A DNA stretch of 64,000 bases from Pseudomonas grandcourensis. GTDB taxonomy: Bacteria; Pseudomonadota; Gammaproteobacteria; Pseudomonadales; Pseudomonadaceae. The stretch is taken from the NCBI RefSeq assembly GCF_039909015.1, contig NZ_CP150919.1:4936501-5000500 (forward strand). Direction: 5' to 3'. Made by a program: the position numbers and the translations under genes. The notes below the pieces were generated by a model. The model worked only from the letters and a program-made list of their open reading frames with translations, did no database searches and was not told the DNA's origin. Positions 45,347 through 60,915 of this stretch are shown one piece after another (position 1 is the first letter of the stretch; the number at the start of each line of letters is the position of its first letter).

Positions 45347-45961
45347 ATGCTTGCCGCAATCACACCGAAGCACCCTGCCCCGAGTGCCCGCGACCGCCTG
45401 CTCGATGTTGCACTGGTACTCTTTGCAACGCGCGGCTATCAGGCCATCGGCCTGCGTGACCTGGCTGGCCAGTTGGGGCTGCATGCCGGCTCGCTGTACA
45501 ACCATATCGAGAACAAACAAAGCCTATTGTTCGAACTGATCGAAGGCGCGGTCTCCGACCTGTTGGCCGGTACCAAGCGCCGTATGCGGGGAGCCCGGAC
45601 GCACCGCGACCGTCTCCAGCGCTTTGTGCACGCATTTGTGGTGTTCAACATGGCCGAGAAACATCGGCTAATGCTGGTGACACGAGAGTTCGTCAACCTC
45701 AGCGATGAGCAACAACAGGAGATCAATCAGCTGAAGAACAGCTACGCCAATCTGCTGAAGGCCATCGTTTCCGCTGAGTGTGGCGAAACTGGCTGCATCG
45801 GTGACCGCACAGGCCTGATCACAGAGGCCGTCATCGGCATGCTTTACGGACAGTCCCTCTGGCAAAGCATTGACGTCCCGGAACAACAACTCACGGATGC
45901 CTTCACCCACTTTGCCCTGGGCATCATTGCCTGCAGCAGAGACCCAGCGCTCAAGGCATAA
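45347..45961 (+). CDS. TetR-family regulator
   Basis: A 204-residue regulator. The HTH is at about 16-62 (RDRLLDVALVLFATRGYQAI, LRDLAGQLGLHAGSLYNHI), followed by a ligand domain that resembles fatty-acyl-CoA-type TetR proteins (FNMAEKHRLMLVTREF). It lies after the permease and before the steroid-like cluster, so either set could be its target. The palindrome at 43814 is a candidate site. Confidence 0.85.
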   Translation: MLAAITPKHPAPSARDRLLDVALVLFATRGYQAIGLRDLAGQLGLHAGSLYNHIENKQSLLFELIEGAVSDLLAGTKRRMRGARTHRDRLQRFVHAFVVFNMAEKHRLMLVTREFVNLSDEQQQEINQLKNSYANLLKAIVSAECGETGCIGDRTGLITEAVIGMLYGQSLWQSIDVPEQQLTDAFTHFALGIIACSRDPALKA

Positions 45962-46043: not shown

Positions 46044-46062
46044 CTAGTCCTGTCGGACGATG
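46044..46062 (+). promoter_or_regulatory. Operator copy 1 (TAGTCY-N4-GGACGATG)
   Basis: CTAGTCCTGTCGGACGATG: dyad GTCC-N4-GGAC with TA before and GATG after. It ends 86 nt before the OYE-type gene. One of six similar sites in this cluster. Confidence 0.75.
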
Positions 46063-46148
46063 TTGCTGCCGGGAAGGAGGGAGAACAATCCCGCCAGTTC
46101 CCGGGTAGGGAACGCTGCACTGACAATTAGAACAACAAAGGGTTAGCC

Positions 46149-47390
46149 ATGCAGAACAACAACGTTCAGGCCATTGCGCCGCCCCCCTTCAGTCCGCTGA
46201 CCATTGGTCCGCTAACACTGCGCAACCGTTTCATCAAGTCCGCCACCAACGAGGGCATGTCCCCCAATGGCGTACCAAGCAAACAGATGGCCAGGTTCCA
46301 TGGCGACATCGCTGCCGGTGGCGTGGGCATGACCACGCTGGCCTACTGTGCCGTCAGCCCGGATGGCTGTACGCTGCCGAACCAGATCGTCCTCAACCGG
46401 GATAACCTTTCGCACCTGCGCGTGATCACCGACGCCGTGCATCGTCATGGCGCCGCGGCCTCGGCACAGATCACCCACGGCGGCTGCTTCACCTTTTTGC
46501 CGCCGCGGCAGACAGCGCGCCCGCTATCCTCCAGCGGCGGCTTCAACAAGGTTGGCATGCTCAGCGGCATGTTCCGCAAGCAGGCGATGACCGAGGTCGA
46601 CATGCTGCGGGTCGCCGACGAGTTCGTGCGCGGCGCGCGGCTGGCTCGCGAGGCCGGCTTCGATGCGGTTGAACTGCACATGGGCCACGGCTATTTGCTC
46701 AGCCAGTTCATTTCGCCGTTGTACAACAAGCGCCGCGACCCGTATGGCGGCAGCCTGGACAATCGCCTGCGCTTCCCCGGCCTGGTGCTGCGCAAGGTGC
46801 TCGATGCGGTGGGCAAGGACCTGGCGGTGGTGTGCAAGTTCAGCATCACCGAGGGCGTGCGGGCCGGCAATACCGCCGAGGACGGCGCCGCCATCGCCCG
46901 TATCCTCGAACGTGAGGGCGCGCACCTGCTGGTGTTGAGCGCGGGAATGAACGTCGAGTCGACGACCACCATGTTCGGTTCCACCTTTCCCAAGGAAAAC
47001 CGCGTCACCGTCCGCAACCCGATCATCGCCGCCGGCATGTTCATCCAGAGCCTGATCGAACCCAAGGTCGAGTTCCGCGAGCTGTACCTGCTCGAGCATG
47101 CCCGCAAGATCCGGGCGGCAGTGAAGATGCCGCTGGCCTACCTGGGCGGGGCCAAGAGCCTGGCCGGAATCGAGCAGCTGATGGCCGAGGGCTTCGACGC
47201 CGTGGCCATGGGGCGCGTGCTGATCGCCGAGCGCGACTATGTCAACAAGCTACAGTCGGGTATCAGTCGCGACTCAATCTGCACCGCCTGCAATCGCTGC
47301 GTGGCGATGATGTACACCCCGGGCGGCACCTCCTGCGTGCTGGGACAACCCGGTGACCCGCAGCTCAACAGCCAGGGCGCCGCGTCCTGA
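46149..47390 (+). CDS. Old-yellow-enzyme-type Fe-S flavin oxidoreductase
   Basis: A 413-residue TIM-barrel FMN enzyme: FSPLTIGPLTLRNRFIKSAT (start), ASAQITHGGC, AVELHMGHGYLLSQFISPLY and GGAKSLAGIEQLMAEGFDAV. It ends with CTACNRC-VAMMYTPGGTSC, the cysteine set that binds a [4Fe-4S] cluster in 2,4-dienoyl-CoA reductase, BaiCD and BaiH. The C-terminal FAD/NADH half of those enzymes is missing, so electrons must come from another protein. It would reduce, or oxidise, an enone. Confidence 0.88.
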   Translation: MQNNNVQAIAPPPFSPLTIGPLTLRNRFIKSATNEGMSPNGVPSKQMARFHGDIAAGGVGMTTLAYCAVSPDGCTLPNQIVLNRDNLSHLRVITDAVHRHGAAASAQITHGGCFTFLPPRQTARPLSSSGGFNKVGMLSGMFRKQAMTEVDMLRVADEFVRGARLAREAGFDAVELHMGHGYLLSQFISPLYNKRRDPYGGSLDNRLRFPGLVLRKVLDAVGKDLAVVCKFSITEGVRAGNTAEDGAAIARILEREGAHLLVLSAGMNVESTTTMFGSTFPKENRVTVRNPIIAAGMFIQSLIEPKVEFRELYLLEHARKIRAAVKMPLAYLGGAKSLAGIEQLMAEGFDAVAMGRVLIAERDYVNKLQSGISRDSICTACNRCVAMMYTPGGTSCVLGQPGDPQLNSQGAAS

Positions 47391-47414
47391 TTCCGGTGGA
47401 TGTTGCTGCGGTTC

Positions 47415-47445
47415 GCCGCCACTGCGTTGGGAGCGCAGTGGCGGC
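47415..47445. terminator. Stem-loop between convergent genes
   Basis: GCCGCCACTGCG, loop, CGCAGTGGCGGC: a 12-bp stem between the OYE gene (+) and the flavoprotein gene (-). No T-tract. Confidence 0.6.
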
Positions 47446-47448
47446 CCG

Positions 47449-48930
47449 TTAGCCTTGCTGTCGCGCTTTGGCGGCATGCAACCCGGCCTGGCGACCGAAG
47501 AAGGTCGCATCCGCCAGGGACATGCCGGAACTATAGCCGCCACCCCAACGGGGCAATCCGCACGCAGTACGCCCTGCCGCATACAGGCCGCCAATCGGCT
47601 CACGCTTTTCCGTGAGGACTTCGCCAGTCGGCAGGGTATCCAGCCCTCCCAGGGTAAAGTGTGGGTAAAGCGCATAATCGACTCGGCAATCCAGCGCAAC
47701 GAACGGCGGCTCGTTGAGTGGCTTGAGCCATTTCGCGGCTTTGTGGAACAACGGGTCGCTGCCATCGGCGGCATGGCGGTTGTACAGCGCTACTGTGGAT
47801 ACCAAGGTGCCCTCGGGGAGCCCAAGGTCCCCTTCCACCTCCTCCCAGGTTTCGCCTGCCGCGGCAATCTGGATGCGTGTGAAGTCCGCGGGCGGCTGGA
47901 ACGTGGCGTTATCGACCAGCAGGTAAATGCGGTCGCCCATCTGCTGCATGATGTGATAACCGACGCGGCCGTGATAGCAATCCTCATTGATGAATCGCTG
48001 GCCACGCTCATTGATGAAAATCCCATTGATCAGCGATTCGGGTGCATAAAACGGCAGGCTCAGGAAGGCCTCGCCCATGTGGATCGCCGCGCCCCCCACG
48101 CTCATCCCCAGGAGGATGCCCGTGCCATTGTCGCCAGGGGTTCCGATGGGATTGTCGGAGCGCAGCAAATGCGGCACATGGCGTTTGACCATATCGCGAT
48201 TCATCACGAAGCCGCCGGCACACAGGATGACGCCGTTGCGGGCCCGGGCAAAACAGATCTGGCCAGCGATCCGAACCACCACACCATGGACATGATTGGC
48301 CTCATCGGCAATCAGGGCGAGCACCCGGCTGTCGTAGCGAATCTCCACGCCAAGCGTTTCGACGCGCGCGGCCAGTGTGTCCATCAACATGCGCCCGCCG
48401 CCCCAGCCGGTCCACTGCGGCGTGTGTCCGCGCGGGCACGGTTTGGCGTGCTCCACGAACGGCCATGCCTCTTCACTGCCGGACCAGATCAGGCAGTCGT
48501 CTGTCACTGGCTCGAGCATTTTTTCCGGCAAAAACGTGTTCTTGTACTTGACCCCTTGCGCGACCAGCCACTCATAGTGGCCAAGACTATTCTCCGCATA
48601 CAGGCGTACCTTCGACTCGTCGGCGTCGGCGCCGCCTGCCATCATCAAATAACGGAAAAGGTCTTCGGTGTCGTCGCTGAAGCCGGCTTGCCGCTGAGCG
48701 GGCGTGCCACCGCTGCCACCCAGATAGATTTCGCCCCCCGACAGAGCGCTCGTGCCGCCGTGGCCGGAGGCGGCTTCCAGAAGCGTCACGGCCGCGCCCG
48801 CGCCGGCGGCTTCAATGGCGGCACAAGCGCCTGCGGCGCCAAAACCGACGACAATCACATCTGTCTCGAGGTCCCAGTTGGGAACCTGGTGGGTCTGGCA
48901 GGGCCGTGAAGAAGAAAAATTAAATGACAT
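47449..48930 (-). CDS. FAD-dependent dehydrogenase, ketosteroid/fumarate-reductase family
   Basis: A 493-residue flavoprotein. It has the Rossmann loop DVIVVGFGAAGACAAIEAAG (about 24-43), HGGTSALSGGEIYLGGS after it, GVILCAGGFVMNR, INERGQRFINED, and a C-terminal GGLYAAGRTACGLPRWGGGY. This pattern is seen in 3-ketosteroid delta-1/delta-4 dehydrogenases and their relatives. It has no FMN-binding domain. It shares a transcript with the SDR gene to its right (18-bp gap). Confidence 0.88.
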   Translation of the reverse strand: MSFNFSSSRPCQTHQVPNWDLETDVIVVGFGAAGACAAIEAAGAGAAVTLLEAASGHGGTSALSGGEIYLGGSGGTPAQRQAGFSDDTEDLFRYLMMAGGADADESKVRLYAENSLGHYEWLVAQGVKYKNTFLPEKMLEPVTDDCLIWSGSEEAWPFVEHAKPCPRGHTPQWTGWGGGRMLMDTLAARVETLGVEIRYDSRVLALIADEANHVHGVVVRIAGQICFARARNGVILCAGGFVMNRDMVKRHVPHLLRSDNPIGTPGDNGTGILLGMSVGGAAIHMGEAFLSLPFYAPESLINGIFINERGQRFINEDCYHGRVGYHIMQQMGDRIYLLVDNATFQPPADFTRIQIAAAGETWEEVEGDLGLPEGTLVSTVALYNRHAADGSDPLFHKAAKWLKPLNEPPFVALDCRVDYALYPHFTLGGLDTLPTGEVLTEKREPIGGLYAAGRTACGLPRWGGGYSSGMSLADATFFGRQAGLHAAKARQQG

Positions 48931-48948
48931 AATTGGCGTCCCGTGATG

Positions 48949-49740
48949 TCACGCTAAGAAGTCGCCGCCATTGACGTCGAGTGTTGCGCCGGTAATCGCG
49001 CTGGCGTAATCGGATACCAGAAAGAGTGCGGCTCTGGCACATTCATCGTCGGTCGGTATGCGCCCGAGTGCGATATTGGCGGCGATTGGTGCAATGATAT
49101 CGGCCTCCGGCACCCGGTATTCGGCCGCTGTCTGCTGGACATAACCCTGTACCGGCGCGCCCCACATCCAGCCCATATGGACATTGTTGGCCCGCACACC
49201 ATGAGATCCCAGTTCCCTGGCCAGATACTTGACCGCCACTGCCAGAGCGCCCTTGGACGCCGCGTAGCCCGATTCGCCTGGAAACGGTTTGCGCGTGGCC
49301 TGGGTGTTGATCATGACGATTGCGCCGTTACCCTGCTTTTTCATGTGCGGCAGGATTTCCTGCGTCAGCGTCATGGTGCCGATGACATTGGTGTCGAAGA
49401 CCGAGCGCCAGCTATCGAGATCAGCCTGCTCGATAGCTTCAGGGAAATTGCCATGCACGTAGGCACTGTTCACCAATGCATCGATCCGGCCGAACCGCTC
49501 GATCGTTTGGTCTGCCAGGCGCTGGCATTGCGCCCTGTCATTAATGTCGGTCACTACCTTGAGTACCTCGCATTGCGTGCCCAGATCGCGAATCCGCGCC
49601 TCTGCATCGTCCAGTTTTGCGGCTGTGCGTGCGGCGAGAATCACCGCATGCGCGCCCTCGCGTGCGGCTTCGATGGCAAGCTTGACACCCAGGCCGGGAC
49701 CGATACCGGACACCACGACGACTTTGTTTCGTAGCAACAT
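48949..49740 (-). CDS. Short-chain dehydrogenase
   Basis: A 263-residue SDR. The cofactor loop is GIGPGLG, and the catalytic motif YAASK follows INTQATRKPFPGESG. The end VNGGDFLA is typical. It is the first gene of a leftward pair with the ketosteroid-dehydrogenase-like gene, under operator copy 2. Confidence 0.88.
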   Translation of the reverse strand: MLLRNKVVVVSGIGPGLGVKLAIEAAREGAHAVILAARTAAKLDDAEARIRDLGTQCEVLKVVTDINDRAQCQRLADQTIERFGRIDALVNSAYVHGNFPEAIEQADLDSWRSVFDTNVIGTMTLTQEILPHMKKQGNGAIVMINTQATRKPFPGESGYAASKGALAVAVKYLARELGSHGVRANNVHMGWMWGAPVQGYVQQTAAEYRVPEADIIAPIAANIALGRIPTDDECARAALFLVSDYASAITGATLDVNGGDFLA

Positions 49741-49811
49741 TTCAACGTCTCCAGTTATTGTTATTCGTATGGATTTGAAAGGTCACCGTATAAGTGAGCG
49801 GCGGCCACATT

Positions 49812-49831
49812 CTTCGTCCGACTGGACTAAG
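49812..49831 (-). promoter_or_regulatory. Operator copy 2
   Basis: On the minus strand CTTAGTCCAGTCGGACGAAG, dyad GTCC-N4-GGAC. It ends 71 nt before the SDR gene start. A weaker look-alike (ATAGTCTGTTTGAGGGATTC, 49897-49916) stands before the rightward EthD-like gene. Confidence 0.7.
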
Positions 49832-50013
49832 TGACTGCGCCTGGTGCGTGCAGTCGCCGGGAACGACTTGGGCTGCGGGCGAACGACAGATCCCGAATAG
49901 TCTGTTTGAGGGATTCCACGGTCTTTCCCGTGACTGACCATGGCTTGCAGGCCTCATCTGGAGGTCGACACAGGCCAAGATACCCACTCACTGAAACGAG
50001 GTTTTTTATCGCT

Positions 50014-50715
50014 ATGGAAAAAGTCATCTACCTGCTCTGGCGTGATACGCAGACCAGCCGCGAAACCTTCGTCCGACGCCTACGCAGCGAGGTCGCCGAA
50101 CAGCTGCAAGCCTTGGGTGCCCAGGGTCTGCAATTGAACCTGGCCGACGCCGATGTCGAACCTGCAGCCGGCCTGCGCCAAGAGAACAACCGGCCGTTGC
50201 CCGACGCCAGCCTATCGCTGTGGCTGGACAGCGCCAACGGCCCCTCGCGTCGCCCGTTTGACAACCTGATCGTTGCCGCGACGGCACGCATGGCCGCCTA
50301 TCTGGTCTGCGAGTCGGTCGCGATCCGCAACACCCGCTTCCCCGCCACACCCGGCGAGCGTACCCACGGTTTCGCCCAGGTGGCCCTGCTGACCCGCCCG
50401 CCGCGCCTGACACCGGAAGCCTGGCTGGACATCTGGCGCAATCACCACACCCCGGTGGCCATCGACACCCAGGACAACTTCCAATACGTGCAGAACCTGG
50501 TGGTATTGGCATTGACCCACGGCGCTCCGCGGATCGACGCTATTGTCGAAGAGTGTTTCCCACCAGCGGCCATGACCGATCCCCAGGCCTTTTTCGATGC
50601 GGTTGGCGACGAAGCGAAATTCCAGCGCAACCTGGCCGCGATGATCGACAGCTGCAATCGCTTTATCGATTTCGACAAGATCGATGTGCTGCCTACCAGT
50701 CAGTACTGCCTGTAG
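50014..50715 (+). CDS. EthD-like protein (duplicated dimeric alpha-beta barrel)
   Basis: A 233-residue protein from the ATG at 50014 (GAGG about 13 bases before). The first half opens VIYLLWRDTQTSRETFVRRL and the second has ALLTRPPRLTPEAWLDIWRN, HHTPVAIDTQDNFQYVQNLV and an RPxxLSxxEFxxHWxxxH-like pattern, as in EthD ferredoxin-like barrels. The fold is probably duplicated. EthD-domain proteins accompany many ring-degradation operons; their role is often unproven. Confidence 0.75.
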   Translation: MEKVIYLLWRDTQTSRETFVRRLRSEVAEQLQALGAQGLQLNLADADVEPAAGLRQENNRPLPDASLSLWLDSANGPSRRPFDNLIVAATARMAAYLVCESVAIRNTRFPATPGERTHGFAQVALLTRPPRLTPEAWLDIWRNHHTPVAIDTQDNFQYVQNLVVLALTHGAPRIDAIVEECFPPAAMTDPQAFFDAVGDEAKFQRNLAAMIDSCNRFIDFDKIDVLPTSQYCL

Positions 50716-50747
50716 GCCGATCTGCATTTCTCGGTAACCGCCATAAC

Positions 50748-50773
50748 GCCCGACGCACTGCGCCGGGCTTTTT
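50748..50773. terminator. Intrinsic terminator
   Basis: GCCCGACGC, loop ACT, GCGCCGGGC, then TTTTT. It is placed between the EthD-like gene (+) and the convergent NTF2-like gene (-). Confidence 0.8.
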
Positions 50774-50784
50774 CATTGGTTTGT

Positions 50785-51270
50785 CTACGCGTGGCAGGCC
50801 GCATCGAACAAGCTGGCAGTCAGCTTGAACTGTTCGGGCAGCGGTGAAGTCAGGGTCTCGAATACGCGGCGGTACCCTGTTGCAAGGATCTGCCAGACCC
50901 CGTCGCGCTTGACGTATTCATCCTGATAAAAAGCCGTACCGTGCAGCATCCAGCCCCCGTCCAGATCAATGACATGATCTTCCAGGTACCAGATGCCCCT
51001 GGCCCTGTCGGGCGCCAGCATTTCGATCTCCGGATGATGGCCCTGGTGCTTGGACAGCAGGCCGGGCCTGTCCATTATTGCCTTGAGCCCCTCTACGAAT
51101 GCAGCGCAGCCATCGAAGCTGTACTTGCCACTGTCCAGGGCGGTTTTCACATCTTCGGCCAGGCAGGTTTCGAACAAGGTCCAGTCGTGGCTGTCGAGCG
51201 CGCGAAAGTAGCGGTACTTGAGCTGTCTGATCTGCTCGATTTCGAGGTAGGTGTCCATCGTGATGGCCAT
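50785..51270 (-). CDS. NTF2/SnoaL-like protein, BaiE-like (steroid 7-dehydratase type)
   Basis: A 161-residue NTF2-fold protein. The ATG at 51270 has AGGAG before it; the upstream ATG at 51330 lies in an operator. It resembles BaiE, the bile-acid 7alpha-dehydratase: QLKYRYFRALDSHDW, GHHPEIE, WYLEDHVIDLDGG, HGTAFYQDEYVKRDGVW and TGYRRVFE match the places of the BaiE catalytic Tyr, Asp, His, Asp and Arg as I recall them. It could dehydrate a ring-hydroxy compound. The similarity is from memory. Confidence 0.8.
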   Translation of the reverse strand: MAITMDTYLEIEQIRQLKYRYFRALDSHDWTLFETCLAEDVKTALDSGKYSFDGCAAFVEGLKAIMDRPGLLSKHQGHHPEIEMLAPDRARGIWYLEDHVIDLDGGWMLHGTAFYQDEYVKRDGVWQILATGYRRVFETLTSPLPEQFKLTASLFDAACHA

Positions 51271-51327
51271 CGGTTGTGCTCCTGTGGGTGGGTCTTCGCG
51301 CAGGATAGGCAGGGGGTGGGCGACACT

Positions 51328-51348
51328 CATCGTCCGGCCAGACTACGG
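51328..51348 (-). promoter_or_regulatory. Operator copy 3
   Basis: Minus-strand CGTAGTCTGGCCGGACGATG: dyad GTCT-N4-GGAC with GATG side toward the BaiE-like gene, 57 nt from its ATG. It pairs with copy 4 in one divergent promoter region. Confidence 0.75.
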
Positions 51349-51391
51349 CCTGCCCGAAGCCTGTTTGAACGATACCGCCCTGCCCCCTGCG

Positions 51392-51410
51392 GTAGTCTCC
51401 TCGGACGATG
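51392..51410 (+). promoter_or_regulatory. Operator copy 4
   Basis: GTAGTCTCCTCGGACGATG, 69 nt before the second NTF2-like gene. Copies 3 and 4 point outward from a 43-bp gap. Confidence 0.75.
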
Positions 51411-51479
51411 CCCCCCCTCCTCCGGAATGCGAGCTTGACCGCACCTGCACCATCGCAGGGCAGACAAGTAGGCTCGAGA

Positions 51480-51914
51480 ATGTCCAAGGCATCGCACCAG
51501 CAAGCGCTCTACGAACTCATCTGTCGTTATGCCCAGGCAGTCGACCAACGCAACTGGGCGGCGCTGTCCCGCCTGTTCACCCCCGAGGCAACGCTCAAGG
51601 GGCCGGGGTTCAGCTTCGATGGCGTCACCGCCATCGTCGAAGGCATGAACGGCCTGGGCCACTACAGCAAGACCCAGCATCACATCCATAACCACCTGGC
51701 TGAAGTGGATGACTTGCAAGCCAGCGCGGAAACCTACTGCGTGGCCAACCATCTCTATGAGACCGAGGGGATCGAGCGCAAGCTCGACTGGGGCATTCGC
51801 TACCGCGACCGTTTCGCCTGCATGGACGGCATCTGGCACTTCACGTGCCGCGAGCTGTTGCTCGACTGGAGCCAGGACCTGCCCCTGCGAGGAGCCCCAC
51901 ATGAAACGCGTTGA
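51480..51914 (+). CDS. NTF2/SnoaL-like protein
   Basis: A 144-residue protein of the same fold (ALYELICRYAQAVDQRNWAA, TKT-type QHHIHNHLAEV, AETYCVANHLYETEG, RYRDRFACMDGIW). It is less BaiE-like and its active site residues are not clear. It overlaps the next SDR gene by 14 bases, so the two are made together. Confidence 0.8.
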   Translation: MSKASHQQALYELICRYAQAVDQRNWAALSRLFTPEATLKGPGFSFDGVTAIVEGMNGLGHYSKTQHHIHNHLAEVDDLQASAETYCVANHLYETEGIERKLDWGIRYRDRFACMDGIWHFTCRELLLDWSQDLPLRGAPHETR

Positions 51915-52662
51915 AAACAAGGTCGTGCTTATCACCGGCGGCGCCAGTGGCGTTGGCAAGGCCGATGCCCTGCTGCTGGCCGCCGAAGGCGCCCGCGTGG
52001 TGGTTGCCGACGTCAACTGCCAGGCCGGCCAGGCCGTGGCCGATGAGATCGGTGCACATGCCCTGTTCATCGAACTGGATGTGGCCGACGAAACACACTG
52101 GCAACGAGCGATCGCCAAGACCCTGGCCCACTTCGGACGCCTGGACGTGCTGGTCAACAATGCGGCGATCTGCCCGCTGGGGACTATCGAGCAAGCCAGC
52201 CTGGAACAGTGGCGCAACGTCATGCGGGTCAACGCTGACGGCTATTTTCTCGGCTGCAAGTACGCTGTCGAGGCGATGAAAAATAATGCCGCGGGCGGCT
52301 CGATCATCATGATGTCTTCGGTCGCGGCCCTCGCCGGCCTGGCGCCGATGTGCGCTTACAGCAGTTCCAAGGGCGCGGTGACCGCGCTGACCCGCAGCGT
52401 GGCCGTCCATTGCAAGCAGCAGGGCTACCGCATCCGCTGCAATTCGGTGCACCCGGACGGCATCTGGACCCCGATGACCCAGGCCATGGTCCCCGACCTC
52501 GACCCGGTAGCCCTGGGCATCGGCGACAACCCCATGGCGCGCATGTGCATGCCCGAGGACGTGGCCGACCTGGTGCTGTTCCTCGCCTCGGATGAATCGC
52601 GCTTCATCAATGGCGCCGAACTGCGCATCGACAACGCGCAGCTGATTTCCGGTATCGCTTGA
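51901..52662 (+). CDS. Short-chain dehydrogenase, hydroxysteroid-dehydrogenase-like
   Basis: A 253-residue SDR: ITGGASGVGK, NNAAICPLG, catalytic YSSSK, and a C-terminal NGAELRIDN. GAGGAG precedes the ATG. The overall pattern resembles 3-/20-hydroxysteroid dehydrogenases and other sec-alcohol SDRs. Second gene of the rightward set. Confidence 0.88.
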   Translation: MKRVENKVVLITGGASGVGKADALLLAAEGARVVVADVNCQAGQAVADEIGAHALFIELDVADETHWQRAIAKTLAHFGRLDVLVNNAAICPLGTIEQASLEQWRNVMRVNADGYFLGCKYAVEAMKNNAAGGSIIMMSSVAALAGLAPMCAYSSSKGAVTALTRSVAVHCKQQGYRIRCNSVHPDGIWTPMTQAMVPDLDPVALGIGDNPMARMCMPEDVADLVLFLASDESRFINGAELRIDNAQLISGIA

Positions 52663-52703
52663 TGTTCCACCAACAAAAAAAGTCTCTGACAGAGGTACCA
52701 CAC

Positions 52704-53459
52704 ATGAACATGCTCAAAGGCAAAGTAGCCCTGATCACCGGTGGTGGCCAAGGGGTCGGCCAGGGTATTGCCTATGCCCTCGCGGATGAAGGTGCAACGG
52801 TCGCAGTGGCAGGCCGCACGCGCGCCACCCTGGAGCAAACCTGTGCAGAAATCCGTCGCCGTGGCGGCACCGCGCTGGTCGTGGAATGCGACGTGATGAG
52901 CCAGGCCGACATCGATCGCTGCGTCGCCCAGGTAGTAGAAGCCTTCGGCGGACTGAACATCCTGGTCAACAATGCCCATATCGTGCCGTTAGGCAGCATC
53001 CTCGAGGTCAGCGACGAAGCCTTCATGCAGGGCATCGACTCGGGCCCCATGGCCACCCTGCGCCTGATGCGGGCCTGCTACCCCTACCTCAAGGGCGACG
53101 GCGCGGTGATCAACCTGGCCTCCTCGGCGGCGGTACGCTGGGACGCATCGGGCTACGGCCATTATGCCGCGACCAAGGAAGCAATCCGCGCCCTGAGCCG
53201 TGGCGCCGCTTGCGAATGGGGTGTGGATGGCATCCGTGTCAACGTCATTGCGCCGCATGCGCTATCACCGGGCCTGCGCGGTTGGGTCGAAAACAACCCG
53301 CAAGAGGCCCAGGCCTTCTTCAGCAGCATCCCGTTGCGCCGGGTCGGCGATTGCGAGACCGACATCGGTCGCACCGTCGCCTTCCTGGTCAGCGACAACG
53401 CACGTTACCTGACTGGCGCGACCATCCCGCTGGATGGCGGCCAGGCTTACTGGGGTTAA
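52704..53459 (+). CDS. Short-chain dehydrogenase
   Basis: A 251-residue SDR from the ATG at 52704 (AGAGG nine bases before). It has ITGGGQGVGQGIAYALADEG, NNAHIVPLG, catalytic YAATK and LTGATIPLDGG. Third gene of the rightward operon. Confidence 0.88.
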   Translation: MNMLKGKVALITGGGQGVGQGIAYALADEGATVAVAGRTRATLEQTCAEIRRRGGTALVVECDVMSQADIDRCVAQVVEAFGGLNILVNNAHIVPLGSILEVSDEAFMQGIDSGPMATLRLMRACYPYLKGDGAVINLASSAAVRWDASGYGHYAATKEAIRALSRGAACEWGVDGIRVNVIAPHALSPGLRGWVENNPQEAQAFFSSIPLRRVGDCETDIGRTVAFLVSDNARYLTGATIPLDGGQAYWG

Positions 53460-53474
53460 TCGAGGAGAAACCGT

Positions 53475-54251
53475 ATGCAACGTTTAGCAAACAAAGTCGC
53501 CATTATCACCGGCGGAGCCCGCGGCATGGGCGCACAGACCTGTCGACTGTTCGTCGAGCACGGCGCGCAGGTGGTCATCGCCGACCTGCTGGAAGCCGAG
53601 GGCCAGGCCCTGGCCAGTGAACTGGGCGACGCCGCCAGCTTTCGCCGCCTGGATGTCAGCGACGAGGGGAGTTGGCAGCAACTGGTGAACGAGACGGTAG
53701 AACGCCTCGGACGCATCGATGTACTGGTGAACAACGCCGCCGTGCTGGTCTTCGGCTCCCTGGAGCAACTGTCCAAGGCCGACTTCGAGCGGGCGCTATC
53801 GATCAATCTGACCGGTACCTTCCTTGGCATCCATACCGTGGCGCCGATCATGCGTGAGCAGCGCGCCGGCTCGATCGTCAACATCTCCTCGGTGGACGGC
53901 TTGCGCGGAGTCAACGCCCTGGCCGCCTACGTCTCCAGCAAGTGGGGCGTTCGCGGGCTGACCAAGGTTGCGGCGCTGGAGCTGGGCCCGCATGGCGTGC
54001 GGGTCAATTCGGTGCATCCGGGCGGGGTCGATACGCAAATGTCCAACCCCACCGGCGCCCCGCGCGACTCGCTCAACAACCAATACCGTCAGGTACCGCT
54101 GCAGCGCATCGGCGCCCCGGAGGAAATTGCCCGCGCCACGCTGTTCCTCGCCAGCGACGACGCCAGCTACTGCAATGGCAGCGAACTGTCGGTGGATGGC
54201 GGCGCGGCGGCTGGTATCTACTACGAAGGCTTGCCGGGTTCGCCCATCTGA
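53475..54251 (+). CDS. Short-chain dehydrogenase, 20-beta-HSD-like
   Basis: A 258-residue SDR starting QRLANKVAIITGGARGMG, which is close to the start of 3alpha,20beta-hydroxysteroid dehydrogenases as I recall them. NNAAVLVFG, catalytic YVSSK and VHPGGVDTQMS complete the fold. It is 15 bases after the previous SDR and ends the operon at a double terminator. Confidence 0.88.
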   Translation: MQRLANKVAIITGGARGMGAQTCRLFVEHGAQVVIADLLEAEGQALASELGDAASFRRLDVSDEGSWQQLVNETVERLGRIDVLVNNAAVLVFGSLEQLSKADFERALSINLTGTFLGIHTVAPIMREQRAGSIVNISSVDGLRGVNALAAYVSSKWGVRGLTKVAALELGPHGVRVNSVHPGGVDTQMSNPTGAPRDSLNNQYRQVPLQRIGAPEEIARATLFLASDDASYCNGSELSVDGGAAAGIYYEGLPGSPI

Positions 54252-54302
54252 ATCATGGGGCACCAATAAAAAAAGACCCGCACGTCGTGCTGACCTCAGA
54301 CG

Positions 54303-54388
54303 CCCCCCCGCCTTTCAAGCGGGGGGTACTTTTAATAGTGTGACTCGCCTGCCGACACCGGCCATGCAGGACAAGGCCGGTGTCGGTT
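54303..54388. terminator. Two stem-loops between convergent operons
   Basis: CCCCCCGC with GCGGGGGG (about 54304-54326, T-rich after), then CCGACACCGGCC with GGCCGGTGTCGG (54352-54386). They separate the rightward SDR operon from the leftward epimerase operon. Confidence 0.75.
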
Positions 54389-54392
54389 GTTT

Positions 54393-55298
54393 CTAGCCGC
54401 GGTACTGACTCACCACTTCGCTCACCGCGCGCTGGATATCCTGGCGCACGTAACCGAGCAATTCAGCGTCCTGCGCGTCGGGCTGGTAGCTGACGGTGTT
54501 GCCACGCCCGGTATAGAGTGCCATGTCCGGTAGCAGCGGGTGCTCCTGGTCCAGAGATGGCATCTCGGCGTCGTTGCCGACAGCGCGCAGGAAGGTCTGG
54601 AAGTATTGGGCGTAACTGAGATTCTCGTCCCCCACAAGGTATGCCTTGCCCGACTCGCCGCGCTGCAGTGCACCCCAGATTGCCTGGGATAGCGAGCGAG
54701 TAGAGATGAAGTTGCTGCCACCCGCCGGACCGTAGAACGGCATTGGCGCGAACTTGCCTTCAGCATAACGGGTGTAGGCCTCGAACATATCCACCTTGAG
54801 TCCCGGCACCATCCCTACAACGAAGGGCGCGTTGACGCTGCAGACTCTGAAGTCCGGCCCGGACAGTGCTCTTGCACCTTCATCCGATAGATGACGCGAG
54901 CGCACGTACGGGATGCTGTCGATCAACTCCGGTGCCACTTGAGGATAAAAGCTGCCCACCAGCACCGCCTGCTTGATCCCGGCGCTACGAGCCAGCTCGA
55001 AAAAGCGCGGGATGGCCTCGACATTCGCGCGTTGCCAGTGAGCATCGATATCACCCTCCTGCGGAACGTGGCGGATGTCGCTGCCGGCAGCGAACACCAG
55101 GGCATCGAAGCTGGCCAGCTCGTCCCGGCTGAGGGTACCCGCGATGTAGTCGCACTGCAGTTGTTTCAACTCGGCGAGGGCGCTGCTTGCGGCCGCCGGT
55201 TTACGGCCGGCGATAGTCACGTCGTTACCCTGGTCCTTGAGATAGAGGGCAGCATGACCACCGATCAGGCCGGTCCCGCCAATTACGAGAATCTTCAT
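54393..55298 (-). CDS. NAD(P)-dependent epimerase/reductase, extended SDR
   Basis: A 301-residue Rossmann protein. The ATG at 55298 (AGGAGC upstream) opens on ILVIGGTGLIGGHAALYL. It has no clear YxxxK in the usual place, and its middle resembles atypical SDRs (AAGSDIRHVPQEGDIDAHW, GSFYPQVAPEL). A reductase or isomerase role is likely; the substrate is unknown. Second gene of a leftward operon. Confidence 0.78.
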   Translation of the reverse strand: MKILVIGGTGLIGGHAALYLKDQGNDVTIAGRKPAAASSALAELKQLQCDYIAGTLSRDELASFDALVFAAGSDIRHVPQEGDIDAHWQRANVEAIPRFFELARSAGIKQAVLVGSFYPQVAPELIDSIPYVRSRHLSDEGARALSGPDFRVCSVNAPFVVGMVPGLKVDMFEAYTRYAEGKFAPMPFYGPAGGSNFISTRSLSQAIWGALQRGESGKAYLVGDENLSYAQYFQTFLRAVGNDAEMPSLDQEHPLLPDMALYTGRGNTVSYQPDAQDAELLGYVRQDIQRAVSEVVSQYRG

Positions 55299-55382
55299 CG
55301 AATATTCGCTCCTGCTTGAGCCCGAAGTCGGGCCGTTTTTTTTGGGGGGGGAAGCGCCAGGGCAACGCCGGGCGCGCACAGC

Positions 55383-56261
55383 TCAGATAACGCGTGCGGG
55401 GTGCTGTCGCCGAGGAGCACCGAGCATCTCGCGATAGGACGGTGGCTGACGTCCGGCCTCATCGCTGATGCCATAGCCCAGGGCCAGCTCGGCGCTGATC
55501 AGGGTCTGCCCGGAGAGGCTGGCCAGTTCCGGGGCATCGAGCAGCGAGCGGATCACTCGACCGTTGAATTCCGGAGTTTCTGCCATGGCCATGAAGGCAT
55601 CGTATTGGTCGGTGCGCTCCGCTCCGGCAATAGCCGTGCGTTCGGTACGCTGCGGGCCGAGCCAGAGAGATATCGCGGCAACGCCGGTGCCCTCGAAGTC
55701 CACCGCCATATCCGCGGCCAGCTTGTCGCAGCCGGCCTTCTGTGCACCATAGGCAGGACCGTGCATGTAGCAGCCGGCGCCGAAGGAGGACACAAACGCA
55801 ATCAGGCCATGTCCGTTACGCACCAGCAGGGGCGCGGCATGGTAGCTGGCGACATAGGCCGAGCGCAGACCGACGTCGAGGATGTCCATCAACTCCAGGG
55901 GTTTGTCCCAGAACGGCCCTGGATCTATCAGGTTCTCGTGGAGCAAGGCGGCGTTGTTTACCAGAAGGTCGAGACGCCCCTGCTCGCGTTCGACGCGGGC
56001 GAAGAGTTCGCGTACCTGTTCATCGTCGCAGTGGTCACAGGACACAGCGATGCCCTTGCCTCCAGCGCGAGTCACTGCCTCGGCGGTTTCCGCCAAACTA
56101 CCAGGCAGCGGCTGACCGCGCAGCTGGCTGGTGCTGGCGGTGGCTGAGCGGGCACTGAGGTAGACGGTCATGCCCGCCGCACCGAGGGCGATGGCAATGC
56201 CCTTGCCAACGCCGCGGCTGGCGCCAGTGACAACCGCGATCCTGGAATTATCCGATTTCAT
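55383..56261 (-). CDS. Short-chain dehydrogenase, DHRS1-like
   Basis: A 292-residue SDR with VTGASRGVGKGIAIALGAAG, NNAALLHENLIDPGPFWDKP, catalytic YGAQK and a long C-terminal tail. The arrangement matches DHRS1-type dehydrogenases. A decayed SDR start (56329-56388) stands between it and its operator. Confidence 0.87.
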   Translation of the reverse strand: MKSDNSRIAVVTGASRGVGKGIAIALGAAGMTVYLSARSATASTSQLRGQPLPGSLAETAEAVTRAGGKGIAVSCDHCDDEQVRELFARVEREQGRLDLLVNNAALLHENLIDPGPFWDKPLELMDILDVGLRSAYVASYHAAPLLVRNGHGLIAFVSSFGAGCYMHGPAYGAQKAGCDKLAADMAVDFEGTGVAAISLWLGPQRTERTAIAGAERTDQYDAFMAMAETPEFNGRVIRSLLDAPELASLSGQTLISAELALGYGISDEAGRQPPSYREMLGAPRRQHPARVI

Positions 56262-56328
56262 CTGTGCTTCCTTATTATTTTTGGTGGTGATGCGCAGCCC
56301 GTCAGTGCGGGGTCAGAAATTGAGACCG

Positions 56329-56388
56329 TTACCGCAGGCCTGCTCCACCGCCAGTGACCAGTACTGTTTTGCCTGTGAAGTCCATCAT
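56329..56388 (-). pseudogene. Remnant of an SDR gene (first 19 codons)
   Basis: Two ATGs at 56388 and 56385 with GGGTAGCGGG before them begin an SDR: FTGKTVLVTGGGAGLR, then TAA at 56331-56329. Everything after the cofactor loop is gone. It kept its ribosome site and the operator 58 nt upstream. The intact SDR gene starts 68 bases further on. Confidence 0.75.
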
Positions 56389-56446
56389 CCCGCTACCCTC
56401 GTTGGCTTGTCGTTTCGGCGATTGTTTGCCGGCGCTACCGGGGCGG

Positions 56447-56466
56447 CATCGTCCTGGGGGACTACC
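56447..56466 (-). promoter_or_regulatory. Operator copy 5
   Basis: Minus-strand GGTAGTCCCCCAGGACGATG: dyad GTCC-N4-GGAC, 58 nt before the SDR remnant and 185 nt before the intact leftward gene. Confidence 0.75.
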
Positions 56467-56531
56467 TCGAATCCAAAGGGCGCACAGCCGCATCAGACGG
56501 TGCGGGCATGCAGAAGGCGGTCTTTCTACAC

Positions 56532-56550
56532 CTAGTCCGGTAGGACGATG
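56532..56550 (+). promoter_or_regulatory. Operator copy 6
   Basis: CTAGTCCGGTAGGACGATG, 94 nt before the DUF1302 gene. It differs from copy 1 at two bases of the spacer only. Confidence 0.78.
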
Positions 56551-56644
56551 AGGACGTACAAGCGTCGACTCCATAGTCATGTCGCAGCGTTCACACCCCG
56601 ACACATACCGACCGGGTAATACCTGGCTCAGGTAAGAGGACGAC

Positions 56645-58276
56645 ATGATAAAAACAATAATCGCCCAGCAACCCCTGCGTTCCGCCGCTCGCTTGTCTCT
56701 GGCCATGTTGGCCGGTGGGCTGGCTGGTCAAGCCCATGCCTTGAGCTACCAGCCCAGCGAAGACTTGAAGGTCCAGTGGAACACCAACCTCACCTATGGC
56801 CTGGCCTGGCGCACCGAGTCCCGCGACAAGCAGTTGTCCGATGGTTTCCCCAACCCTTTGATCGCCAACATCGACGACGGCAACAATGCCTTCGACCGCG
56901 GTAGCCTGATCAGCAATCGATCCAGCTTCCTCACCGAGATAAACCTCAACTGGCAACAGGATTACGGCCTGTTCATGCGCGCCAGCGGCTTCTACGACGA
57001 CGTCTACAACCGCGACAACGACAACGACACCGGCACCTCGAACTGCTTCGTTGGCGGCGAATGCTCAAGTCCCAAGCACTTTTCCCAGGAGACCATCGAC
57101 CAGCACGGACGTGATGTACGTCTGCTCGACTCCTATGTATACGGCAGCTGGAACCTGGGCGGGCACGACCTCAACCTGCGCCTGGGCGACCAGGTGGTCA
57201 GTTGGGGTGAAAGCCTGTACATCGCCAACGGCATCTCCGGCGCGCAAAGCCCGGCCGACGCCACCAAGGCCAATACCCCCGGGGTCGAGGTCAAGGAGAT
57301 CTTCCTGCCGGTGGGCCAGCTGTTCGGCCAGATCAGCGTGACCGATAACATAGGTCTGCAGGCTTACTACCAGTACGAATGGCGCAAGACCGAGATCGAC
57401 GGCGTCGGCAGCTTTTTCTCGGTCACCGACCAGATCGACGAGGGCGGCTTCACCGATGCCTTCGGCCTGACCCACCGCCTGAAGGACGACAAGCCCAGCG
57501 ACAAAGGGCAGTACGGCGTGGCCATGACCTATATGGCCGAAGCACTGAACAATACCGAATTCGGTTTGTACTACTCGCGCTTCCATGACAAGGCACCCCA
57601 GCTGGATTTCCTCAGCCACTGGAACGAAGCCGCTTACCTGGTGCATTACTTCGATGAAGTCGACCTGTTTGGCGCCAGCTTCTCCACCGTACTTGGCGAA
57701 ACCAACGTCAGTGGCGAGATCAGCTACCGCGACGGTGCGCCCGTGATGGTGGATACCGGCCTAGTGCCTTACTCGGTACGAGGCGAGACCCTGCAGACCC
57801 AGGTGTCCTTCGTCCACATGCTGAGCAACACCTGGGTGGCCGACACGGTCAACCTCACCGGTGAAGTGGGCTACAACCGCGTCCTGCAGAACGACAAGGC
57901 GCCAAGTTTCAATGTGTTCGTCGCCGATGGCACGGGCGGGTTCGCCTCCCTCACCACGCCGAACACCGACACGCTGTTCAACGACACATCGTCTTGGGGC
58001 TACACCGTCGGCGCCACCTTTTCCTACCTGAACCTCATCAATGGCTGGGATATGAGCATTCCCCTTGTGTTCAGCCAGGCGGTCAACGGCGACTCCTCGC
58101 TGCTCGGCAGTTTCGGCATGGGTGAGGGAGACAATCGCCTGGGTGTCGGCGTCAGCTGGAGCTACCTCAACAACCTGACCCTCGATACTCGTTACAACGC
58201 CTTCCTTGGCGACGCCAAGGACACCCCGCTGGCCGATCGCGACAACCTCGCCATCAGCGCCAAGTACAGCTTCTAA
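56645..58276 (+). CDS. DUF1302 outer-membrane protein
   Basis: A 543-residue exported protein with a signal peptide (LSLAMLAGGLAGQAHA) and a beta-barrel-like body that ends in aromatic AKYSF. DUF1302 and DUF1329 proteins are nearly always neighbours and are found in hydrophobic-substrate degradation clusters of Pseudomonas. A role in uptake or transfer across the outer membrane is likely. AAGAGG precedes the ATG. First gene of the pair. Confidence 0.9.
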   Translation: MIKTIIAQQPLRSAARLSLAMLAGGLAGQAHALSYQPSEDLKVQWNTNLTYGLAWRTESRDKQLSDGFPNPLIANIDDGNNAFDRGSLISNRSSFLTEINLNWQQDYGLFMRASGFYDDVYNRDNDNDTGTSNCFVGGECSSPKHFSQETIDQHGRDVRLLDSYVYGSWNLGGHDLNLRLGDQVVSWGESLYIANGISGAQSPADATKANTPGVEVKEIFLPVGQLFGQISVTDNIGLQAYYQYEWRKTEIDGVGSFFSVTDQIDEGGFTDAFGLTHRLKDDKPSDKGQYGVAMTYMAEALNNTEFGLYYSRFHDKAPQLDFLSHWNEAAYLVHYFDEVDLFGASFSTVLGETNVSGEISYRDGAPVMVDTGLVPYSVRGETLQTQVSFVHMLSNTWVADTVNLTGEVGYNRVLQNDKAPSFNVFVADGTGGFASLTTPNTDTLFNDTSSWGYTVGATFSYLNLINGWDMSIPLVFSQAVNGDSSLLGSFGMGEGDNRLGVGVSWSYLNNLTLDTRYNAFLGDAKDTPLADRDNLAISAKYSF

Positions 58277-58298
58277 CTCAGTGCGCCGGAGAATCCAC

Positions 58299-59672
58299 AT
58301 GCATATTCAGCACAAGACCCTATTGCTCAGCGTGTTGCTTGCCAGCAGTTTCAGCAGCGTCGCACTGGCCAAATCAAGCCCTGAAGAGGCCGCCCGTCTG
58401 GGCCGCGAACTCACCCCCATGGGCGCGGAAAAAGCCGGCAATGCCGATGGCAGCATTCCCGCCTGGAGCGGCAAATGGCGCGGTGCACCGCCCAACCTGA
58501 ACTACGCCGGCAGCGGCAGCCAGTACCCGAATCCCTACGCCGATGAGAAACCGCTGTTCACCATCACGGCACAGAACATGGCGCAATACGAAGGCAAGCT
58601 TTCCGACGGCCAGAAAGCCCTGTTCCGGCACTACCCGCAGACGTTCAAGATGCCGATCTACCCCAGCCATCGCGATTTCCGCTACTCGGAAAGGGTCGAG
58701 AGCAACATTGCGAAGAATGCTGTCGATGCCGAACTGATCAGCGATGGCAACGGCGTGACCAATGCCATTGGCGCCTCTCCCTTCCCCATCCCGAAAAATG
58801 GCTACGAGCTGATGTGGAACCTCAACCTGCCTGCCCGGGCCTGGAAGGAGGACGCCGTCTACACCATGGCCCTTACCCTGTCCAACGGTGAGCGCTCGCT
58901 CGAGTCCATGGACTACAAGATCTACTCGGTCTGGGACGACCCCAAGGAAAGCGTCGGTAGCTCCGGCGGCGTACAGGCCTACGCCATGGTGTCCACCCTG
59001 GAACCTGCGCGTAAAAAGGGCGAGATCATCCTTGCCCACACGTTCACCGACCCCATGGCCTCTCCATCCCAGGCCTGGCAATACGTTCCTGGCATGCGTC
59101 GGGTACGTCGAGCCCCCACCGTGGCCTACGACACCCCCTTCGGTGCCGGTGGCTTTCGCGTGATGGATGAAGACCGCCTGTTCAACGGCGCGCCGGATCG
59201 GTACGAGTGGAAGTTGCTCGGCAAACAGGAGATGTATATCCCCTATAACAACAACAAGCTCGACGATCCCGGCATGAAGCTCGACCAGTTGCTGGCTACC
59301 AAAGGCCACGTCAATCCCGATTACATGCGTTACGAGTTGCACCGTGTATGGGTTCTGGAAGCCAACCTCAAGCCCGGCAAACGGCACGTCTATGGCAAGC
59401 GCAGGCTCTATATCGACGAAGACTCGTGGATCGGCGTGCTGGCCGACAACTACGACGGCAAGGGCGCCCTGTGGCGCAGCAACATGCAGACCACGGTGTA
59501 CGCCTACGACATGCAGGGCTTCCAGGCGCGCCTCGCGATGTTCCATGACCTGATCGCCGGTTCCTACCTGACCGACCGCCTGCTCAATGGTCAACCCCCC
59601 GCTCGCCTGAACAGCAGCAGTTTCGAAGCGGACTATTTCACCACTACCAACCTACGCAAACTTGGGCGCTGA
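58299..59672 (+). CDS. DUF1329 outer-membrane-associated protein
   Basis: A 457-residue exported protein. The ATG at 58299 has GGAGA before it and a signal peptide (TLLLSVLLASSFSSVALA). The mature part starts EEAARLGRELTPMGAEKAGN, typical of DUF1329, which is related to the LolB/LppX-like lipid-binding fold. It lies 22 bases after DUF1302 and works with it, presumably for a hydrophobic compound. Confidence 0.9.
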   Translation: MHIQHKTLLLSVLLASSFSSVALAKSSPEEAARLGRELTPMGAEKAGNADGSIPAWSGKWRGAPPNLNYAGSGSQYPNPYADEKPLFTITAQNMAQYEGKLSDGQKALFRHYPQTFKMPIYPSHRDFRYSERVESNIAKNAVDAELISDGNGVTNAIGASPFPIPKNGYELMWNLNLPARAWKEDAVYTMALTLSNGERSLESMDYKIYSVWDDPKESVGSSGGVQAYAMVSTLEPARKKGEIILAHTFTDPMASPSQAWQYVPGMRRVRRAPTVAYDTPFGAGGFRVMDEDRLFNGAPDRYEWKLLGKQEMYIPYNNNKLDDPGMKLDQLLATKGHVNPDYMRYELHRVWVLEANLKPGKRHVYGKRRLYIDEDSWIGVLADNYDGKGALWRSNMQTTVYAYDMQGFQARLAMFHDLIAGSYLTDRLLNGQPPARLNSSSFEADYFTTTNLRKLGR

Positions 59673-59736
59673 CAATCAGAGCCACTGCCCGAACGCCACG
59701 CGGTCGGGCAGCAGGCTCACACGACATGAGGTCCAT

Positions 59737-60867
59737 ATGCTACATCCCCTCAGCCTTGAAGAATTCAGCGGCATGCTCGGCAGCCTTTACCAGGGGCCGC
59801 TGGAAAGTATTCCCTGGAGCACCTTTCTAGACCAACTCAAATGCTCGATGGGGGCCAAGCACGCCACCCTCACCCTGCGACCGCCGAGCCAGCACGTGGA
59901 CGGTCTGAGTATCAACACTGCCGGTTCCTCGGCGGCGATGTCAGCGTCCTACAATCAGTACTTCTACACCCTCGACCCCTTCACCGACCTGCCCAATCGC
60001 CAAGTCGTCATCTGCACCGAATTCGTTTCCGAGAAGGACTGGCTGGAATCCGAGTTTTACAAGGGGTTCCTGGAACCTGTGGATGTGTTCCATATCCTTG
60101 GAGCCGACATCAACACCAGCCTTGGCTCCAAATGCCGGATCCGCATCTCCCGCGATCGCGCCAGCGGGCCATTCAATCAGCAGGACAAGGAGTTTCTTGC
60201 CTCGTTCCTGCCGCACCTTGAACGTACAGTCATCCTGCACATGTGCCTCAACCGCATCGAGAGTGAACGCAACCTTTATGCTGGCGCCGTCGACAAACTG
60301 GCTGTGGGCACCATCATCCTCGACCAGGACGGAAAGGTCCTGCAGAGCAATCGACTCGCCCAACGCCTGCTGGCGGAAAGGGACGGTATCGAACTGGTCA
60401 ACGACGGTCTACAAGTGGGGACGGTGCGCGATTGCCAGGAATTCCACAAACTGATCGATCAGGCCTTGCTCTCGCAGAAGGGCAAGAACCCCTCGCTGGT
60501 CAAGGCCATGCGCGTGCAACGTCCTTCCGGGCGGGTCAACCTTGGCCTGATCGTGCGCCGCGTGCAGCAAAGCGAATGGAGCGACGGCAGATACTGCCCG
60601 GCAGTGGTCATTTTCATCAGCGACCCTGCGCAGAAATCCACCGCCCTTGAAGAAATCGTCCGGTCGCTGTTCGACCTGACGCCTGCCGAAACTCACCTGA
60701 CCTTTCAGTTAGCCAATGGCCAGACCATTGATGAAGCCTCGGAGGAACTCGGCATCAGCCGCAACACGGCACGTGCGCAACTGCGTTCTATCTTTTCGAA
60801 AACCGGGGTCACCAGCCAGACCTTACTGGTGCGCTTGATTCTGCGTAGCGTCGCCACCCTCGGTTAA
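59737..60867 (+). CDS. LuxR-type regulator, candidate master of the cluster
   Basis: A 376-residue regulator from the ATG at 59737 (GAGG before). The N-terminal two thirds is a sensor region with a PAS-like part (NLYAGAVDKLAVGTIILDQD, GKVLQSNRLAQRLL). The C-terminal LuxR helix-turn-helix is LTPAETHLTFQLANGQTIDE and ISRNTARAQLRSIFSKTGV. Regulators of this shape sit beside DUF1302/DUF1329 genes in other pseudomonads. The six dyads of this cluster are the natural candidates for its binding sites. Confidence 0.88.
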   Translation: MLHPLSLEEFSGMLGSLYQGPLESIPWSTFLDQLKCSMGAKHATLTLRPPSQHVDGLSINTAGSSAAMSASYNQYFYTLDPFTDLPNRQVVICTEFVSEKDWLESEFYKGFLEPVDVFHILGADINTSLGSKCRIRISRDRASGPFNQQDKEFLASFLPHLERTVILHMCLNRIESERNLYAGAVDKLAVGTIILDQDGKVLQSNRLAQRLLAERDGIELVNDGLQVGTVRDCQEFHKLIDQALLSQKGKNPSLVKAMRVQRPSGRVNLGLIVRRVQQSEWSDGRYCPAVVIFISDPAQKSTALEEIVRSLFDLTPAETHLTFQLANGQTIDEASEELGISRNTARAQLRSIFSKTGVTSQTLLVRLILRSVATLG

Positions 60868-60915
60868 GCGGCCGCCACGCACGATAAAACGGGTTTCCTT
60901 TAGCGAAGGATGATT

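Follow-up and report, generated by a model that had tools for sequence, protein, structure and literature searches.

A conserved dyad as the very probable operator of TeiR/TesR-family activators in proteobacterial steroid gene clusters

Here we examine a short DNA dyad, TAGTCY-N4-GGACGATG, that recurs upstream of catabolic genes in a 64,000-nt stretch of Pseudomonas grandcourensis DNA (the window), together with TeiR, a LuxR-type regulator of the TeiR/TesR family encoded in the same stretch. Sequence comparison makes it highly likely, in our view, that a TeiR/TesR-family activator uses the dyad as its operator. The dyad stands before most gene groups, travels with TeiR from genome to genome and lies where a bound activator would contact RNA polymerase; it is therefore very probably the site through which TeiR switches on its genes. 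The TeiR family itself is already known. An operator for it was not found in the portions consulted of the open literature searched (including PMC12239570 and PMC12882949), a search that excluded the primary TeiR/TesR papers, where one may stand.

Copies of the dyad in the P. grandcourensis genome

A pattern search of the window returned five exact copies of the dyad and one copy with a single mismatch, in keeping with the six-copy operator set described in an initial annotation of this DNA, which had placed each plus-strand start one base too low. The candidate operators, with their scores on the position weight matrix (PWM) described below, are as follows.

46045..46062, plus strand: exact; PWM 27.1; 86 nt upstream of the old-yellow-enzyme-like gene 46149-47390; -10-like AACAAT at 46084-46089
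49812..49829, minus strand: one mismatch (GAAG); PWM 22.3; 71 nt upstream of the short-chain dehydrogenase/reductase (SDR) gene 48949-49740; -10-like TATACG at 49787-49792
51328..51345, minus strand: exact; PWM 24.0; 69 nt upstream of the SnoaL-like gene 50785-51258; -10-like TATCCT at 51302-51307
51393..51410, plus strand: exact; PWM 27.1; 69 nt upstream of the SnoaL-like gene 51480-51914, which three SDR genes follow
56447..56464, minus strand: exact; PWM 19.6; 58 nt upstream of an SDR remnant; -10-like AACAAT at 56421-56426
56533..56550, plus strand: exact; PWM 23.9; 94 nt upstream of the DUF1302 gene 56645-58276; -10-like CATAGT at 56572-56577

Downstream of site 49812, the SDR gene is followed by the KstD-like flavoprotein gene 47449-48930. 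From the end of each site to the called start codon the distances are 86, 71, 69, 69, 185 and 94 nt; the 57-94 nt of the initial annotation holds if the start of the remnant (58 nt by hand count) is used for site 56447, and fails with the called SDR gene 55383-56261 (185 nt). At up to three mismatches the window contains 18 matches, against a shuffled mean of 6.64 (standard deviation 2.53, largest 12), and a -10-like hexamer with four of six matches stands in register at five of the six sites. A weak copy proposed at 49897 did not survive scrutiny as an operator, having four mismatches by hand count and a PWM score below 8, against a lowest training score of 17.7.

Near-exact copies are largely confined to two regions of the 6.76-Mb genome. 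Ten exact copies exist, five in the window and five at 2.203-2.233 Mb; of eight one-mismatch copies, one lies in the window, five at 2.203-2.233 Mb and two elsewhere, which places 16 of 18 inside the two clusters. The reversed pattern has no exact copy in the genome. The PWM was built from 172 of the 188 de-duplicated promoter contexts described below, leaving out the 16 from the P. grandcourensis genome, and was scored on the 91 genome matches at up to two mismatches and on selected stretches. Nineteen of the 91 reached the lowest training score, the next best being 15.0, and, with two sites scoring on both strands, they mark 17 separate places: six in the window, ten in the second cluster and one at 3217246. 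Among the matches scored, high-scoring sites are thus not as common elsewhere in the genome, since 16 of the 17 places (18 of the 19 matches) fall in the two clusters. A one-mismatch match at genome position 4135405 was rejected, with a PWM score of 12.6.

The gene content of the second cluster (2.20-2.23 Mb) is that of the 9,10-seco steroid pathway, comprising HsaA/B/C-like, Ksh, KstD-like, FadD3-like and TesE/F/G-like proteins. FadD3-like, acetaldehyde dehydrogenase and aldolase proteins score above NCBIfam cut-offs; HsaA-, HsaC-, 3-ketosteroid-1-dehydrogenase- (KstD-) and hydratase-like proteins score below them; and an HsaB-like flavin reductase and a KshB-like reductase were found with Pfam. 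We read a Rieske protein in the cluster as KshA-like. The sites lie 45-111 nt upstream of called gene starts. The exception is the minus-strand site 12895, which overlaps an SDR; the Pfam match of this SDR begins only at residue 46, so its true start is probably downstream of the called one. The catabolic regulon suggested by the initial annotation is supported and is wider than claimed, extending to this steroid cluster and to one more locus. At this locus, which belongs to neither cluster, a symmetric site at 3217246-3217263 (L034:9747-9764; PWM 25.5) closely follows an AraC-type gene and stands upstream of genes for a BNR-repeat protein and an MMPL-type transporter; in P. akapageensis the same palindrome is found in front of an SDR gene (L158:9829).

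The two clusters have paralogues in common, namely DUF1302 (60% identity), DUF1329 (63%), two SDRs (69% and 63%) and the LuxR-type regulator (67%). Of the regulators encoded in the window from 39 kb on, TeiR alone gave a blastp match in the second cluster. Near the second teiR, a minus-strand site at L031:17643-17660 (genome 2207642) lies 54 nt upstream of a nudE-like Nudix gene, in the gap separating this gene from the teiR paralogue, and a site just downstream of teiR also occurs in several other Pseudomonas genomes. Another minus-strand site, L031:16889-16906 (genome 2206888; PWM 23.9), lies 61 nt upstream of a 55-aa open reading frame lacking a Pfam match.

Co-occurrence of the dyad with TeiR

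The presence of the dyad follows that of the regulator. A TeiR relative at E<=1e-30 was found in 21 of 149 Pseudomonas genomes, and each of these 21 holds 3-10 exact sites; the reversed pattern occurs once each in four Pseudomonas genomes. The same association is seen in the genus of genome G372, which we call Comamonas-like on the strength of the 97% identity between its TeiR and P0125 (UniRef: TeiR, Comamonas testosteroni). There, 18 of 53 genomes have a relative of P0125 at E<=1e-60, and the same 18 carry 4-7 copies of TAGTCY-N4-RGACGATG, with none in the 35 others and the reversed pattern once each in three genomes. In G372 itself, 10 of 11 motif matches lie at 2.756-2.926 Mb, around teiR. 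Four genomes with weak TeiR relatives only (E 1e-42 to 1e-56) have no TAGTC-type site and 1-4 TCGTC-type matches. Many TeiR-bearing genomes of the G372 genus contain two to four TeiR-related matches, which suggests repeated duplication of the sensor over one operator.

The association extends to other groups. A search with the TeiR alignment gave 437 relatives, of which the best 80 were kept as named TeiR loci; 79 of these carry a site at up to one mismatch: 60/60 in Pseudomonas/Stutzerimonas, 5/6 in Endozoicomonas, 3/3 in Oceanospirillales/Marinobacter and 11/11 in betaproteobacteria. Exact sites occur in 47, 1, 2 and 6 loci of these groups, respectively, and the reversed pattern, taken at exactly one mismatch, matched 10 times, always in Pseudomonas loci. 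The motif adjoins TeiR relatives in Endozoicomonas, Marinobacter, Cupriavidus, Paraburkholderia and Collimonas. Beyond Pseudomonas, sites stand upstream of homologues of KshA, HsaA, HsaC/TesB, TesD, DUF1302 and DUF1329, several of the sites there being without a called or matched downstream gene. In Cupriavidus they precede homologues of the window EthD (68-69%) and SnoaL (59-60%, the SnoaL site being at the score limit) proteins, and in a Marinobacter metagenome-assembled genome a homologue of the window KstD-like gene (54%). In the Comamonas-like genome, sites stand upstream of the tesA2 and tesB homologues, and teiR ends the same-strand run that starts at tesB, as far as genes were called. 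In C. testosteroni, a passage of PMC6895838 reports that TesR is required for induction of tesB-tesR, tesA1-tesG and tesA2-ORF18.

The initial annotation named the LuxR-type protein at 59737 as the likely binder, and site confinement and co-occurrence support this protein, or its 67% paralogue, in that role. The window protein is 37% identical over the alignment to P0125, and the copy in the second cluster is the only paralogue found. It is this paralogue that has the steroid-cluster setting of the TeiR family, the window cluster holding plausible accessory genes only. The LuxR-type helix-turn-helix (HTH) match, to GerE, is below the Pfam cut-off (E 2.4e-4, 21.1 bits against 23.5), and the core of the HTH is near-invariant in an alignment of TeiR relatives. 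The predicted fold combines a LasR-like sensor (the autoinducer-binding-domain fold), a PAS-like domain and the HTH; no sequence match to TeiR was found in the PDB at E<=1e-3.

Co-occurrence alone cannot separate genes that travel together, and the dyad could belong to another co-travelling regulator, with TeiR acting upstream as a membrane kinase and a different protein binding the DNA. Passages in reviews indeed describe TeiR as a polar membrane protein with kinase activity (PMC6678751, PMC8399759, PMC8700777). We consider this arrangement unlikely. TeiR has an HTH of its own, no kinase domain in Pfam at E<=1e-3 and no strongly hydrophobic 19-residue stretch, the maximum mean being 1.16 in the window protein and 1.65 in P0125. 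The absence of a kinase fold among the structural matches listed (best 1000 Foldseek chains) is uninformative either way. As for another DNA-binding protein, blastp found a counterpart in the second cluster for TeiR and none for the TetR gene at 45347.

Promoter register, symmetry and mode of action

To place the dyad relative to promoters, we surveyed sites in 102 partly overlapping sources (e.g., L144 with L169, and L066 with L156-L157). Only 3 of 149 exact sites lie inside called genes, and 126 have a same-strand gene start within 250 nt downstream, at a median of 86 nt; at up to one mismatch, 28 of 432 sites fall in genes and 357 are directed at a start. Every one of the 11 matches of the reversed control is in a gene, and none faces a start. 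Dropping sites that were in genes (except in the second cluster), had no called downstream start or had incomplete context reduced the 432 to 348 contexts, and de-duplication at <70% identity left 188, of which 111 were under 50% identical downstream.

A -10-like hexamer (near TANAAT) starts 20, 21 or 22 nt past the site in 17, 64 and 23 of the 188 contexts, compared with at most five contexts at any other offset from 1 to 49. The total at 20-22 nt, 104 of 188, compares with a shuffled mean of 3.9 and maximum of 10, and the stricter de-duplication leaves 59 of 111. No -35 hexamer was seen in the 188 contexts, and a -10 without a -35 is as expected for activator-dependent promoters. If transcription is assumed to start 7 nt past the -10, the axis of the dyad falls at about -42.5 and the right end of the site takes the place of the -35 hexamer. 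LuxR-type activators at class II promoters are arranged in this manner, as with the lux box at -42.5. In its sequence layout, the dyad with a -10 and no -35 would correspond to this class II architecture.

Fifty-one of 256 distinct sites score on both strands. Between divergent genes, symmetric sites usually occur alone (17, compared with four accompanied by a second site), while one-strand sites usually come with a second site (61, compared with 20 alone; Fisher 3.6e-6). These counts suggest that one symmetric dyad serves two promoters, and that asymmetric dyads point one way and come in pairs. The -10 register (four of six matches at 20-22 nt) is present at 132 of 205 asymmetric sites, against 30 at offsets 30-32 and none at 10-12.

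These data bear on two further explanations. Binding across the -35 region could also hinder polymerase, and passages in PMC6678751 and PMC8700777 mention a LuxR repressor of 3,17beta-hydroxysteroid dehydrogenase in C. testosteroni, so TeiR might bind as a repressor, or the two paralogues might act in opposite senses. We judge this very improbable, as the contexts retain a -10 but no -35 hexamer and TeiR/TesR is reported, again in passages of the sources (PMC6678751, PMC8399759, PMC6895838), to be a positive regulator. The likeness of the motifs could instead be a leftover of recent promoter duplication, devoid of a binding function, which the paralogues common to both clusters might suggest. 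This is hardly credible: the 18-mer is kept despite the divergence of the 188 contexts, the sites precede unrelated gene families in gamma- and betaproteobacteria, and the flank comparison already contradicts duplication.

Taking the dyad as the operator of an activating TeiR, we propose the following sequence of events. TeiR would sense a steroid or steroid metabolite through its LasR-like domain, its PAS-like domain or both, and a TeiR dimer would bind T(A/C)GTCY-N4-RGACGATG through the LuxR-type HTH. At asymmetric sites, the dyad axis near -42.5 would stand in for the -35, and TeiR would recruit RNA polymerase to a -10-only promoter (class II activation). A single operator code would in this way turn on the 9,10-seco pathway, the accessory module of the window and the BNR/MMPL transporter locus. 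The window teiR, being probably behind its own site, would be subject to positive feedback. A more far-reaching version is that TeiR is a soluble, DNA-acting steroid receptor built on a LasR fold with a PAS domain, and that the two 67% paralogues read one operator code in response to two steroid signals, controlling the same catabolon with positive feedback; we put this forward tentatively, at somewhat less than an even chance.

Several observations weigh against TeiR acting through the dyad, besides the membrane-kinase account in the reviews. The raw pattern is not enriched in the P. grandcourensis genome at up to two mismatches (91 matches against 123 for the reversed control), so only near-exact copies are informative and two-mismatch matches were rejected as evidence. 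One or two exact copies occur in 5 of the 128 Pseudomonas genomes without a TeiR relative, and the Fisher values for co-occurrence (3e-21 in Pseudomonas, 1.5e-14 in the G372 genus) ignore phylogeny. No in-register -10-like hexamer is present in 84 of the 188 contexts, among them site 51393 of the window, where the best hexamer has two of six matches. Symmetric sites fit the register on both sides in 16 cases, on one side in 17 and on neither in 18 (n=51), and the mechanism is less certain at such sites. No site was identified for the tesA1 operon of the Comamonas-like genome. Finally, the window TeiR has Q at HTH residue 348, which is H in almost all relatives; the substitution may alter the DNA affinity of this paralogue.

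The window cluster and known steroid systems

The genes of the window cluster are listed below.

46149..47390, plus strand: old-yellow-enzyme-like oxidoreductase; NCBIfam equivalogs matched below cut-offs only
47449..48930, minus strand: FAD-binding KstD-like dehydrogenase; NCBIfam PRK07121.1-3 subfamily above cut-off
48949..49740, minus strand: SDR oxidoreductase
50014..50715, plus strand: EthD-like protein; without its own site here, whereas the Cupriavidus homologues have one
50785..51258, minus strand: SnoaL-like protein
51480..51914, plus strand: SnoaL-like protein
51901-52662, 52662-53459 and 53475-54251, plus strand: three SDR genes
54393-55379, minus strand: epimerase-like gene
55383-56261, minus strand: SDR gene
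56338..56388, minus strand: truncated SDR remnant; full-length relative at L156:17775-18611 in P. akapageensis
56645..58276, plus strand: DUF1302 protein; first gene of a probable DUF1302-DUF1329-teiR operon
58281..59672, plus strand: DUF1329 protein
59737..60867, plus strand: TeiR/TesR-like LuxR-type regulator, 376 aa; the likely binder

There are no ring-cleavage genes in the window cluster, only plausible accessory genes, and on this gene content it is probably an accessory steroid or bile-acid module, serving side groups of these substrates. No Rfam family reached the gathering threshold in the window. The initial annotation had the regulator without a site of its own, which is correct locally; however, the 64-nt gap between the DUF1329 stop and the teiR start is on the same strand and contains no called promoter or terminator, so that teiR is probably the last gene of the operon behind site 56533.

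P. akapageensis has an 88-90% identical version of window 50745-55313 (gapped) and 56338-60868, which keeps four of the six window sites, 51328 being one of them. The SDR remnant beside 56447 corresponds to the beginning of an SDR gene present at full length in that species; the remnant still sits behind its operator, and homology to P. akapageensis breaks and resumes at 56338. The P. akapageensis cluster also contains, at L156:13951-16502, genes for a Cys/Met-metabolism PLP enzyme and a CBS/PALP-domain protein, of which the window has none at that place.

The system resembles TeiR/TesR of C. testosteroni in its regulator (identity to P0125, HTH core and place beside steroid genes) and in that close TeiR relatives in the G372 genus go with the same operator; it differs in that the window carries a diverged paralogue, set in an accessory cluster. 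With LuxR/LasR quorum-sensing activators it would share the predicted autoinducer-binding-domain fold and a dyad near -42.5. Unlike them, TeiR (about 11% identical) has an extra PAS-like domain between sensor and HTH, another operator and a setting in catabolic clusters. In actinobacteria, KstR and KstR2 control the steroid catabolon through a dedicated operator set. The TeiR system has such a set as well, but KstR/KstR2 are TetR-type repressors, whereas TeiR is LuxR-type and probably activating (KstR is named in passages of PMC6678751, PMC8399759 and PMC4810484). Accessory functions may have a counterpart in steABCD of C. testosteroni, to which a passage of PMC13101464 attributes removal of the C12-hydroxyl. 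Like the window, this set has SDRs, a SnoaL/NTF2-type dehydratase and an old-yellow-enzyme-like reductase, and its putative equivalents in the Comamonas-like genome (the ste labels are our own) have the operator upstream. Compared with putative SteA-D, the window proteins are 28-38% (SDR), 29% (old yellow enzyme) and 24-28% (SnoaL, E about 1e-4) identical; the SnoaL likeness is weak and the gene order differs.

Altogether, a defined operator would make steroid regulons readable from genome sequence, pointing to accessory gene sets such as that of the window, and would offer a compact part for steroid biosensors. It would also make the mode of action of TeiR directly testable, so that a DNA-binding receptor could be told apart from a membrane kinase. 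If true, the soluble-receptor reading would replace the membrane-kinase account of proteobacterial steroid sensing.

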